Below, in pieces: positions 4,522 to 9,115 of a DNA stretch of 25,196 bases (its first letter is position 1; each line of letters starts with the position of its first letter). Origin of the DNA: a virus. The stretch is from positions 1-25,196 of the IMG/VR virus record IMGVR_UViG_3300037507_000139. One strand, given 5' to 3'. Position numbers and translations under genes: made by a program. The notes under the pieces were generated by a model. That model worked only from the letters and a program-made list of their open reading frames with translations. It was not told the DNA's origin and searched no databases.

Positions 4522-4732
4522 AGTATGGAACCTTTTTGATTTCCCCGTTAACCGTTACGTTGATAAACCCCCGTGGGTTAGCCGGTAGGGTCGCAGAGCC
4601 AGCCGTAGCCGTAGAGCTGCTAGAAAAGTTCAGCAAGTTCAAAAAGAATAACTGCCACGCAGGGGTGGGCCGTCCCGCATCGTTAACCAGTTGGGAGGTC
4701 GGTATTATTTGGTTTTGGGGTAGTTGGGCCAT
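4511..4732 (-). CDS. Small hypothetical protein, 73 aa
   Basis: ATG 4732 forms TGATG with the stop of the gp10-like gene, and its own end overlaps the cupin gene by 11 bases. The protein has a polar start ([20 protein letters not shown]), a short hydrophobic aromatic patch (AWQLFFLNLLNF) that is too short for a firm membrane call, a Ser/Ala linker and a C-terminal beta-like NVTVNGEIKKVPYYDV. The aromatic start followed by a small beta element is typical of small virion proteins next to tail genes. No named family is assigned. Confidence 0.75.
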   Translation of the reverse strand: MAQLPQNQIIPTSQLVNDAGRPTPAWQLFFLNLLNFSSSSTATAGSATLPANPRGFINVTVNGEIKKVPYYDV

Positions 4733-6603
4733 CAGTTATCCCCGGCTTCCGCTTTTAGGTTAGCCGACACGATGACCGCCTTGATTGGGTCGGTGATCAC
4801 CACCTCAAATATCCTGTCCCGCGCAAACCCTAGCCGTCTCCACATGGCCCGCGTGAAGTATTGGCCCTGCTTGCCTATGGTGACCCAGTTCTCGTTAGAC
4901 CAAGTAAAGCCGCCGTCATCCGACCAGCGGAGCATAGCCTGTGGGTCTTGACCCTGCCCTACGGGTAATCCAACTCCGGGTTGGAACTGGATCTGAAGTT
5001 CCGCAAAATACTGGCGCTGGAGGTCTGTGGTTATATGGGGACACCTTCTAAGGCGGCGTATGAACTGACCGTCATCGGTATATTGTGATAGAGACAGTCT
5101 ATACAATTTGCCGTTTTCATAGTCACCAAGTAATACTTGCTGGTTAAAAAATGCACAGCAGTTTCCACGGTGGCGCTCGTACTGGCCTTGGTTATTTGAG
5201 TAGAGCCATTTGTGCCAAAGACCTGTGGTGATGTCATAGGCCCAAGTCAGGCCGTTCTCCCCAATACTAGGGAACGTCACGACATAGGTCTCATGGCCTT
5301 CTAACTGGTAAGTCCACGCAATCGCATCCGATACGTCTTGGCCTACCAAAGTAGTCTCAACCGCGTGGGTGGAGATCCTCTGCGGGATGTAGCCGTTCAT
5401 CTGGACGATGGTGGCCTCACCTCGGTTGTTCTTAGAAACGTAGGCAAAAGAGTTACCCACCCGCGCACAGGAATAGGCCGCAGCGATACCCTGTTGAGTG
5501 CTTGATCCCTGAATCCTCTGAAAAGGAAAGGGGACAGATCCAACGTCTAGCCACGCCTCGGAGGACATTTCACCCAGTAGGTAGACCTCGCGCCTATCGA
5601 CAATAATTGCCACTAGGTCATCTGGAGACCCGTCTTTAGAGGCAAACGACAGGGGGTCAGTAATCGGGGATAAAAGGTCTGAAGCCGCCCAAAGTTGGCT
5701 TTGAGGCTTATTGTAGACAAAGTAATTGTCCGATATATCAACAGTCCCACCGCCCTCAAAGGCTCCGTCTGTGGAGGGTAGAACCGTCCAGTTTAGGGCG
5801 TATATCGTGGTGCTAGAGACCGTTTGGGAGGCGCTTACGGTGTACGTTCCCGCACCCCCGGAACCCGTCCCAAAGGCCGTAATAATTGTCCCATCGGTCA
5901 CCCCTGTGCCTTCAATCGTTTGGCCTATTTTCAGAGTGCCGCTGGTCACCGCGCTAACGGTCAAGGTTGTGCCAGAGATAGCTCCGGTCACAATAGCGGG
6001 TGAGGCGGTTGAGTTGATTACGGTCGAGGCTACGGTCTGGGAGTCGCTAACCGTGTAGGTTCCAACCCCGCCTGACCCAGTTCCTAGTGCCGTAATCACA
6101 GAATTTTGAGCTACTCCCTGACCAAAAATGGCCTGTCCTACCGCAATAGTTCCGCTTTGAACTGAGGTCACCGTCAGGGTTGTAGAGCTAATTGATCCGG
6201 TAAAAATGGCTGATGACGGGGCGCTAATGAACCATGTGTAGCGATAAGCATCGTCCACAATGTAGACGTTCACCCCGTTATCCACAATCCCTACTTGACC
6301 CGTGGAGGTGTTCATCTGACCGACCATCACGGGGGTCAAATCGTCCTCTAAGACGTATACAAAGTCACCGCAGACCGCAACGACCTGAGTTCCACCGGAC
6401 AGGGTTCTGATCCCTCTGACTTCTTCCTGATTGGGGAAGATTGCCACGGTCTCAAGTCCCGGTGTCGGGTAAAGCGCCACGATACCGCGCTCGCCTTGAG
6501 CCTTGGTCGGGTCTATCTCAGGGTAGAAGTTGATGCACTCTTGAGCGTCTTGAGTGATGGAGGGTGCTTCGTAAGCCGCGCCTACGAATCCAAAGTCAGG
6601 CAT
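4732..6603 (-). CDS. Packaged-DNA stabilisation protein, P22 gp10-like, 623 aa
   Basis: The start is set at ATG 6603, which forms TAATG with the upstream gp4-like gene; a TTG at 6630 would add nine residues but has no case for it. The N-terminus ([13 protein letters not shown], then [10 protein letters not shown] and YPTPGLE) is characteristic of P22 gp10-type tail hub proteins that plug the portal after packaging. The rest is beta-rich, consistent with a propeller-like fold. Residues about 134-267 are two tandem copies of a Gly/Thr-rich beta module. Removing them leaves about 486 residues, close to P22 gp10 (472). The neighbour on the 5' side is the gp4-like gene, as in P22. The family call is strong; the exact fold is inferred. 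Confidence 0.9.
5803..5994 (-). repeat. Beta-module insertion, copy 2 in the gp10-like gene
   Basis: Encodes about 64 residues beginning [18 protein letters not shown] and ending [15 protein letters not shown]. It is the second of two tandem copies in the same gene, separated from copy 1 by about seven residues. The shared core is TG-I-x-T-LTV, GQ-I-G-GV, ITA-GTGSGG-GTYTVS-SQTV-ST-I. The nucleotide sequences are visibly diverged, so the duplication is not recent. Confidence 0.85.
6016..6204 (-). repeat. Beta-module insertion, copy 1 in the gp10-like gene
   Basis: Encodes about 63 residues beginning [18 protein letters not shown] and ending [15 protein letters not shown]. Its 3' part shares a near-identical nucleotide run (gaggctacggtctg on the plus strand) with the module copy in the gp4-like gene, which suggests common descent or local recombination between the two genes. 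Confidence 0.85.
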
Positions 6604-7571
6604 TACTGGAAGCCCCCAGTAAGAATCCAACCGGCATCCGCACGTTTGCCGACCACTAAAACGTCATCGTACCTAGCAGACTGCATGGGCTTCATGTTGG
6701 TTCTCTTGATTGTGGCCTTGGCTTGTAAGGCGTAAGCGTTAATCATTGATGCCATTTGAGGGTTGGACTTGCCGTACATAGGCATAAGTCTCTCAGCCAA
6801 ACACCACCGTAGGCACATAAGATAGCCCTGCGGGATCACAATCGTGTCGTTGATGCTATTAAACCGTTGGAATACCGTGTCGCAGAATATGTGCATCTCG
6901 CCCTGAGACGGGTTAGGCCAGAAGTAAAACGTACCCATAACCTCAGAGGGCTGGTAGTAGAGAGCCTTAGGCCACGGGCCGTTTTGGGTCTTTAGCCCAA
7001 TCAGCTCGTAGTTCTCTAGGTTCAGGATAGCTACTGGGTAATCTAGGCCACCGTTAACAATAGGCTGACCGTTAGAGTTAGTGTTTACTCGCACAAAGGC
7101 TGAGTTAACCGCAAGGGGGCGCTCGTAATAAGCGGTTATGGTGGTTGAGGCTACGGTCTGAGTATTGTTAACCGTGTACGTCCCGGCGTAGTTGACGTTA
7201 CCTCCAGCACCGGTTCCAAAGCCCGTGATCTTGGTTCCCGCAGTAATTCCTGTTCCTGAGAGCGTCATGCCCAAAGCGATACCGCCCTCGGTGATATTGG
7301 TGACGGTTAGGGTATTCCCTGCTATTGAACCTGTAAAGGTAGAGTTCACCTGACCGGTCGGGCCAACGGTGTACTGGGTCTGTCCCGCAGTCAGGGTGAA
7401 GATGATCTCGGTCTTGTAGTAGACCATCATCTGCTCGTTTGACCATTGGTCAATCATGTCGTTCAACATATCGAAAGCGTCTTGGGCTTCCGCAGGGGCT
7501 GGGGTCTCGCCAGCAGCCAAAGCGCCAATGTCCTTCATGGCGCGGCTAATAATGTCTATCGGCTGGGTCAT
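6603..7571 (-). CDS. Tail accessory / head-completion protein, P22 gp4-like, 322 aa
   Basis: ATG 7571 is preceded by AAGGTGAAG and overlaps the previous stop (ATGA). The opening ([19 protein letters not shown], then [16 protein letters not shown]) is the typical helical start of the P22 gp4 family, which binds below the portal and joins head to tail. P22 gp4 has 166 residues; this protein is longer, partly because a roughly 69-residue beta module is inserted at residues 79-147 between GPTGQVNS and [10 protein letters not shown]. The C-terminal region contains the familiar [15 protein letters not shown] segment and a Trp/Pro-rich stretch. The downstream neighbour is the gp10-like gene, as expected. 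Confidence 0.9.
7131..7337 (-). repeat. Beta-module insertion in the gp4-like gene
   Basis: Encodes about 69 residues beginning [18 protein letters not shown] and ending [18 protein letters not shown], the same module as the two copies in the adjacent gp10-like gene. A short extra segment (NVNYA) interrupts the Gly-rich turn. The insertion lies in a loop between conserved gp4-family segments. Confidence 0.85.
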
Positions 7572-7873: not shown

Positions 7874-8243
7874 TTTCTACCCAAGAAGTTGTGGCCTCGT
7901 CCCATGTATAACGCTTTGGTGGCTCACCAGTTCCAGCGTCAGATGGCATTGGAGTAGGCGCATCCCATTGGGCTGTGTCGTTATTCAAAATCCAAGACGC
8001 AAACGGTTTTGGTGGTACAAACGCATCTAATCCAGCGTTGTAGGTGTAGCCGATACCAGCGTAGTTCTTACGGATGTTTCCGTTGTAAGAGGTCTTAAGC
8101 CAGTTGCCGCCAAATAGACGCTGGCAGAAAGCCACGCCAATGGATTCAACTTCCGTTCCGTCAGGGGTTGAGGTATCTCTGTTGTCAACTACGATTACCC
8201 GCAGCACGACATTGTTGCTATCGATTTCAGCGAAATGCGCCAT
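7866..8243 (-). CDS. Putative small tail-associated protein with YAGIGYTY motif, 125 aa
   Basis: ATG 8243 follows a clear TAGGAGAATTAG ribosome binding site. The protein starts MAHFAEIDSNNVVLRVIVVD and carries the string RKNYAGIGYTYNAGLDAFVP, then a C-terminal YTWDEATTSWVE. I recognise this combination from a widespread family in cyanophages and other aquatic phages, usually found with tail or neck genes and without a proven function. The compact start and aromatic turns look like a small beta protein. Assigned structural or assembly only by association. Confidence 0.82.
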   Translation of the reverse strand: MAHFAEIDSNNVVLRVIVVDNRDTSTPDGTEVESIGVAFCQRLFGGNWLKTSYNGNIRKNYAGIGYTYNAGLDAFVPPKPFASWILNNDTAQWDAPTPMPSDAGTGEPPKRYTWDEATTSWVENV

Positions 8244-8847
8244 CTAATTCTCCTAATTGCAGTCCAGTTAAATCCATTTCTTCCCCGACATTACCAACAG
8301 GGAAAGTGTTAAACGACAGGCTAATACGGGTCTGGTCAGATTCCACGGTAGGAACCATGTGGGTCAGGCTAGACGGAAAGAGTACCAAGTCGCAAGACCC
8401 AACCTCAAACCACCACGACTCCGAGTTCCAGACATTCCAATTGCTTGGCGGAAACTTAATCTGCTGATAGCCGTTGCGGTAGAAGTAAATCCTGTCTTTG
8501 ACTTTATCAGCTTGCACATAGAACACACCAGACACAAATGAGTTTGGGTGTTCGTGCTTGTGGTGGTACTGACCCTGCTCTGTGTAGTTCGTCCACGATT
8601 GCGTAATCTTTAGATTGACCTTGTGCTTGGGGCTGTAAACCGTGGTGAAGTACTCCGACACGCTGGTTTCAATAAAATCCCGCAACTGGGTCAATTCCTT
8701 AGCTTTCAAAATCGTATTATTGGTACTGGTCGTGTTACCCATGTTCGACCGTGTTTCTTGGTTTTTCAGAAACGACAGTTCTTTAGCAGAGAGGTCACGG
8801 TCTAGTTTATAGATGCCAACAGGAGTGGGAAAGAGGTTATGCAGCAC
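8227..8847 (-). CDS. 2-oxoglutarate/Fe(II)-dependent oxygenase-like protein, 206 aa
   Basis: GTG 8847 is chosen because TTGAGGAAC gives a Shine-Dalgarno five to six bases upstream, and the protein then begins LHNLFPTPVGIYKL as family members usually do; a TTG at 8859 lacks such a site. Residues about 95-113 (HHKHEHPNSFVSGVFYV) match the iron-binding strand of the phage 2OG-FeII_Oxy_5-type family. DLVLFPSSLTHMVPTV (about 151-166) supplies the distal His, and RISLSFN (about 172-178) the 2-oxoglutarate-binding Arg. It lies among fibre genes, so a protein substrate such as a tail fibre is possible, but no substrate can be read from the sequence. Confidence 0.85.
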   Translation of the reverse strand: MLHNLFPTPVGIYKLDRDLSAKELSFLKNQETRSNMGNTTSTNNTILKAKELTQLRDFIETSVSEYFTTVYSPKHKVNLKITQSWTNYTEQGQYHHKHEHPNSFVSGVFYVQADKVKDRIYFYRNGYQQIKFPPSNWNVWNSESWWFEVGSCDLVLFPSSLTHMVPTVESDQTRISLSFNTFPVGNVGEEMDLTGLQLGELDGAFR

Positions 8848-9115
8848 GTTGTTCCTCAATGATTGCGTCTACTTGCTTTTGTATTTCCATCTGACCGGTG
8901 AATTGCTCAATCTGCTCTGGCAACCAAATCGTGTTGATGGAATCCTCAAACGCTTTAATCTTTTCCATTGTGTCTTGAACCTCTTGCCAAGTCGGGCAGG
9001 GCCGAGGGTCTTCCCAACGTGAAAAGTAAGTGTTTGAGATTTCCCACTTTGCACCCGGTCTTAGCAGGTGCATTGCGGTATCGATTCCATACAACCGATA
9101 GATTTTGGTTTCCAT
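8837..9115 (-). CDS. Small helical phage protein, 92 aa
   Basis: ATG 9115 follows GAGGACAA. The protein starts METKIYRLYGIDTAMHLLRP, includes WEDPRPCPTWQEVQDTMEKI, and ends in a long charged helix rich in Gln and Glu. The RPCPTW segment followed by amphipathic helix is seen in small proteins next to phage oxygenase and tail-fibre genes. It overlaps the start of the oxygenase-like gene by 11 bases, so the two are probably co-translated. The function is unknown; an assembly chaperone for the Gly-rich fibre protein encoded just upstream is a guess. Confidence 0.8.
   Translation of the reverse strand: METKIYRLYGIDTAMHLLRPGAKWEISNTYFSRWEDPRPCPTWQEVQDTMEKIKAFEDSINTIWLPEQIEQFTGQMEIQKQVDAIIEEQRAA

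Follow-up and report, generated by a model that had tools for sequence, protein, structure and literature searches.

Two adjacent tail genes of an uncultivated virus contain stretches that resemble one another, which raises the question of whether one small domain has been built into both proteins, how it arrived there, and what it might do for the virion. The window, meaning the whole stretch of DNA analysed here, is a 25 kb IMG/VR virus contig (25,196 nucleotides), and its minus strand carries genes for the large terminase, portal, scaffold, major head protein, adaptor, hub and ejection proteins, in this order. A 2OG-Fe(II) oxygenase gene (PF13759, phrog_81) lies amid the structural genes at window 8227-8859. 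The features under study are listed below, with gp10 residue numbers counted from the ATG at 6603.

4732..6603, minus strand: gp10-like tail hub / head-closure Hc3 gene, about 623 aa from the ATG used by relatives
6603..7571, minus strand: gp4-like head-to-tail adaptor gene, 322 aa
7131-7346, minus strand: gp4 module, 72 aa, residues 76-147, module HMM score 83.6 bits
6010-6213, minus strand: gp10 module 1, 68 aa, residues about 131-198, ending in TVINS, module HMM score 97.5 bits
5797-6000, minus strand: gp10 module 2, 68 aa, residues about 202-269, ending in TTIYA, module HMM score 100.6 bits

The two genes are adjacent, and the gp10 ATG overlaps the gp4 stop codon (TAATG). The listed open reading frame of the gp10-like gene starts at the TTG at 6630, while the start of its relatives corresponds to the ATG at 6603. 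The profile phrog_578 (head closure Hc3) matched residues 12-630 of the gp10-like protein with an E value of 6e-99, and its relatives among solved structures were 7eeq (E 5.5e-20) and 9vyg (E 1.5e-18), both needle-head / stabilization proteins. This whole-length profile match, together with a solved hub relative, identified the core of the 623-aa gene product as a P22 gp10 / head closure Hc3 protein. For the gp4-like protein, PF24175 (SU10_adaptor) matched with an E value of 1e-11 and 46.2 bits against a cutoff of 27, and its AF2 model, searched against the PDB with Foldseek, matched podophage adaptors including 9k09 (E 1e-7) and SU10 7z47 with a probability of 1.00. The family match and the adaptor fold thus both assigned the core of the 322-aa product to the P22 gp4 / SU10-type head-to-tail adaptors.

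An earlier note on this DNA had proposed three copies of one β-module in the two genes. Pairwise BLOSUM62 local scores among the three segments were 209, 161 and 198, against a shuffle maximum of 87 (1000 shuffles per pair), and the other two modules were 66% and 61% identical to gp10 copy 2. These results confirmed that the three modules are homologous, the adaptor holding a single copy and the hub a tandem pair. The module consensus, built from 252 copies, is about 68 residues long; the gp4 copy has a 4-residue insert ahead of GTYTV, which is typical for gp4 copies. The modules consist of 50-53% Gly, Thr and Ser, with about 3% charged residues, 4-5% aromatics and almost no Trp, and their sequence is repetitive and of low complexity.

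To describe the fold, the gp10 tandem and the whole gp4 protein were modelled with AF2. The gp10 tandem (pLDDT 93.4, pTM 0.85) showed two repeats of a long-short-short-long strand pattern, and in whole gp4 (pLDDT 85.6) residues 75-148 formed a separate four-strand unit with the same pattern as in gp10. The independent BFVD prediction of a full-length gp10, A0A6J5QB28, reproduced the tandem fold with a TM of 0.90. The models therefore agreed on a module that is predicted to be an independently folding all-β unit. When 27 modules were compared with Pfam and NCBIfam, nothing above noise appeared: no model covered the module and no CBM family matched it. PDB profile searches with two module alignments returned antibody noise or nothing. 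The best plausible fold in the PDB was chain 1 of 8eci from Arthrobacter phage Bridgette, a chain of 124 aa to which the search output assigns no role; it was found from both AF2 models with a probability of 0.99-1.00 but weak E values of 0.27 and 0.08, at 26% identity over 70 columns, and gave no sequence profile match. Searches of the open-licence literature by sequence fragment and by domain insertion found no description of the module.

We next asked whether the modules belong to the cores of the two proteins. In alignments with public phage records, the gp4 copy sits between '...YTVG-P-G' and '...RP...', where module-free relatives continue straight across, and the gp10 copies precede '...LNWTVLP', where module-free relatives are likewise uninterrupted. 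Without both copies gp10 measures about 480 aa, compared with 473-489 aa in five module-free relatives, which agrees with the length argument made earlier. PF24175 and phrog_12985 each matched gp4 in two stretches broken by the insertion, so the splitting of known families was also borne out. In the AF2 model the gp4 insertion is located in the β-rich part of the adaptor, and a strand count made by hand from the alignment places the gp10 insertion in an early propeller blade, within the hairpin that joins its third and fourth strands. The predicted structures show the module as a domain separate from the core, and 61 of 92 gp10 rows lack gp10 modules, so that neither of the findings named in the earlier note as refuting its reading was borne out: the modules are neither integral to the cores nor universal at these sites. 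All these results supported the reading that the modules are independent domains set into loops of gp4 and gp10, as judged from alignments and predicted structures.

Several other insertions were seen in related proteins. In Xanthomonas phage PBR31 (L007 2297-2500), gp4 is interrupted at the module site by a similarly long insert, which scores 4.1 bits at 30% identity; it may be a very diverged module, in which case the gp4 insertion would be older. In EBPR podovirus 1 (L010 5616-7190), a gp10-like protein has apparently two copies of a different β-module at separate places, with the pattern GSTATVTL...YNG...FTYAV...ATG, which may mean that modules have been inserted in parallel within this protein family. 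In MW202520 (L005 3001-4587), the gp10-like protein carries a different insertion of about 35 residues in its C-terminal part, LIIAPTQTYTIAPTQIVTIWYEW, which is absent from the aligned relatives.

The earlier note had suggested a profile search across phage proteins, and many unrelated virion proteins were found to carry the module. Among 367 sequences, 87 nonredundant carriers were neither gp4 nor gp10; the loci were retrieved by similarity to the query, and these frequencies are not natural ones. Pfam hits on the 72 scanned carriers comprised the tail sheath DUF3383 (5), Baseplate_J (4), XM1 gp53 minor capsid (3), neck terminator (3), structural cement (3), LamG (2) and λ D (2), where the XM1 and cement models can hit one protein and the tallies may overlap; single hits included the capsid families Phage_capsid_4 and Gp10A-like, Gly_rich_2, T4 gp8 and others. 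The carrier classes include baseplate wedge and collar fibre proteins, and BFVD added an HK97 major capsid protein and collagen-like proteins of the giant virus Indivirus. In two DUF3383 proteins (L124 and L170) the module lies at the break between two stretches of the family match, near profile position 142-144, and in a Gp10A-like capsid protein (L191) it lies near the break in the family match; in cement-type proteins it is placed after the conserved domain. Nine loci outside the gp4/gp10 set had two or more module-bearing ORFs. When isolated phages were searched by tblastn with the gp4 module and its flanks, only two Manatee Spring phages were found, and the module alone found nothing, with the low-complexity filter probably masking the query. 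An artificial hybrid probe with fewer repeats, designed to pass this filter, brought in a third Manatee Spring phage and a Sinorhizobium phage. On a contig binned as a Methylococcales bacterium (L175), both the gp4 and gp10 genes bear modules, which hints at a methanotroph host or at a mis-binned phage contig.

To trace the history of the modules, the nearest module in another locus was determined for each copy. It shared the position in all cases: 125/125 for gp4, 105/105 for gp10 copy 1 and 102/102 for gp10 copy 2. By this comparison each gene position has its own old orthologous module lineage, and gp4 and gp10 are not swapping copies; recent copying between gp4 and gp10 was rejected, since nearest neighbours in other loci were always position-matched. 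In loci where both genes were sampled, gp10 modules never occurred without a gp4 module. On the gp10 core tree, whose core may itself recombine, the 61 of 92 rows without gp10 modules all lie on one side of a branch with a support of 99. The nearest of these gp10-module-free rows (L233, L004, L005, L156, L161, L167 and L279) already have gp4 modules, suggesting that gp4 gained the module first. Most simply, then, gp4 would have gained its module first, gp10 its two copies later, and a further two-module cassette would have been gained or lost many times.

This cassette is 136 aa long, consists of two further modules and lies within the last strand of gp10 module 2. A dedicated search located it in 18 loci, each time in gp10 and each time at this site. 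Among the loci concerned (L040, L055, L029, L081, L135, L126 and L367-L384) its presence or absence differs between close relatives; it is missing from close sisters, as in the window compared with L040, so that copy number varies from 2 to 4. The four-module gp10 state requires 8-9 changes (5-95% of bootstrap trees). A single clade of four-module gp10 was rejected by the AU test (p 4.6e-6). Among L055, L040 and L029, the cassette showed 86-91% DNA identity, with 0.28-0.43 of four-fold sites differing, whereas outside it the same three pairs were less alike: identity was 60-80% for the adjoining modules and 68-77% for the core, and 0.46-0.71 of four-fold sites differed there. The contrast was sharpest for L055 and L029 (cassette 91%, adjoining modules 60%, core 68-72%) and was missing in the other cassette-bearing pairs, for which reason recent exchange is shown for these three lineages alone. 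These identities indicated that the cassette was recently exchanged horizontally among L055, L040 and L029; an ancient presence of the cassette with repeated loss and allelic exchange is also conceivable. The idea that the module jumps into loops of virion proteins thus held in part: it is found in loops, and a cassette has moved horizontally, but the gp4 and gp10 copies are not recent copies of each other. They follow position-specific lineages, gp4 having gained its module before gp10, and the recent movement is a gp10-specific exchange at one site.

The selection acting on the modules was then examined. Between close relatives dN/dS was 0.06-0.10 for modules versus 0.04 for cores, and between more distant relatives it was 0.11-0.14 for modules, with synonymous sites near saturation. 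The modules evolve faster than the cores, yet all three are under purifying selection, and no diversifying selection was seen. A self-contained β-domain rich in Gly, Thr and Ser has thus been built into loops of two short-tail ring proteins, with one module per subunit on the gp4-like adaptor and two on the gp10-like hub; it lies outside the core of either protein, is kept by purifying selection and is exchanged between phages via recombination. As the best explanation overall, to which we would give about an even chance, it would be an accessory surface decoration in exposed loops, whose repeated copies give the virion exterior a contact surface of low affinity towards the host envelope, capsule or other polymers, much as the Ig-like domains of other phages do. 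Exposure of the modules is likely from the architecture of homologous tails, since by the hand count the gp10 modules occupy an early-blade hairpin and blades 1-3 of the SU10 propeller lie away from the tail axis (PMC9509320). Adhesion, meaning host or glycan binding, would be the best guess by analogy with phage Douge, in which Ig-like domains on the capsid and tail tube proved to bind glycans of the host (PMC13033339), and with proposals made for sheath domains (PMC9230969). Counting against it are the scarcity of charged residues and of Trp, unlike typical aromatic carbohydrate-binding modules, the absence of diversifying selection and the lack of a solved relative with a known ligand. The breadth of carriers favours a general surface role over one specific to gp4 and gp10. 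In its widest form, to which we would give slightly less than an even chance, the module would be a non-Ig decoration domain reused across capsid, cement, neck, sheath, baseplate, fibre, adaptor and hub, often on several proteins per particle. It would lend different parts of the virion one surface chemistry, and recombination of the cassette would tune how many copies the hub carries.

A structural role within the tail, such as fibre or spike docking at the adaptor-hub junction or an extended nozzle tip, comparable to the fibre dock of T7/SU10 adaptors and to the Ig-like nozzle domains of SU10, would fit the position of the gp10 insertion in the hand-counted blade hairpin, that of the gp4 insertion in the β-rich adaptor part, and the occurrence of gp10 modules only alongside gp4 modules where both genes were sampled. 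We consider it unlikely, as the module is also carried by capsid, cement, sheath and baseplate proteins, where a junction of this kind does not exist, close sisters differ between 2 and 4 copies, and close relatives lack the gp10 modules. Still less probable is a virion-stabilising cement, in which modules of neighbouring subunits would pack and brace the tail rings as capsid cement does; Bridgette, the source of the best plausible fold match, is a phage whose capsid cement proteins are described as dimeric (PMC13033339), cement and λ D-like proteins are among the module carriers, and extra sheath-protein domains have been proposed as virion stabilisers (PMC9230969), but the 8eci match is weak by E value, and presence and copy number vary too much for a required brace. 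Least probable is a near-neutral passenger, whose repeated DNA recombines readily and whose extra exposed β-domain is tolerated with no specific function: the repetitive, low-complexity sequence and a cassette gained or lost again and again at a single site would suit it, but all three modules are under purifying selection and the frames of module-bearing gp4 and gp10 stay open across divergent lineages, in about 100 nonredundant copies each.

The surface-decoration reading can be set beside the extra domains described in other tails. A fibre-dock domain is part of the SU10 and T7 adaptors, and Ig-like domains are inserted in the nozzle proteins of SU10 (PMC9509320); the SU10/T7 hub forms a propeller of seven blades into which a nozzle domain is inserted (PMC9509320, PMC6702177). 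The module is similar in adding a β-domain to the same two ring proteins, the propeller hub and the adaptor. A domain of the SU10 nozzle type would be expected near blades 2-3 of the propeller; the module appears to lie in an early-blade hairpin, its blade number coming from the hand count. However, the SU10 and T7 domains are part of the tail machine, forming the nozzle or docking fibres, whereas the module can be absent, does not match them significantly and is carried by capsid and sheath proteins as well. Two PHROG families, 21413 and 38233 (tail fibre protein), contain the module and match nearly every carrier scanned, but they are whole-protein families in which the module itself is neither delimited nor named. 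The order of gain, from adaptor to hub and then to repeated gain or loss of the cassette, is unusually clear, and it is found in a short-tail adaptor and hub that are usually viewed as conserved machinery. Why phages place one small β-domain on many virion proteins is a question that can be tested with one small soluble protein. The closest known kind is the Ig-like domains of tailed phages, described as promiscuous (Fraser et al. 2006, as cited in PMC10684548, PMC13320782 and PMC9230969). Like them, the module is small and all-β, is found on many unrelated virion proteins and is exchanged horizontally, and the Ig-like domains are thought to aid adsorption. Unlike them, it had no significant Pfam Ig match among 27 modules, and we do not call it Ig-like because Fab and antibody chains reached a probability of only 0.01-0.03 against the module model. 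The module is thus best described as a different, unmodelled domain used as the promiscuous Ig-like domains are, and it becomes a second family among the few promiscuous domains of phage surfaces.
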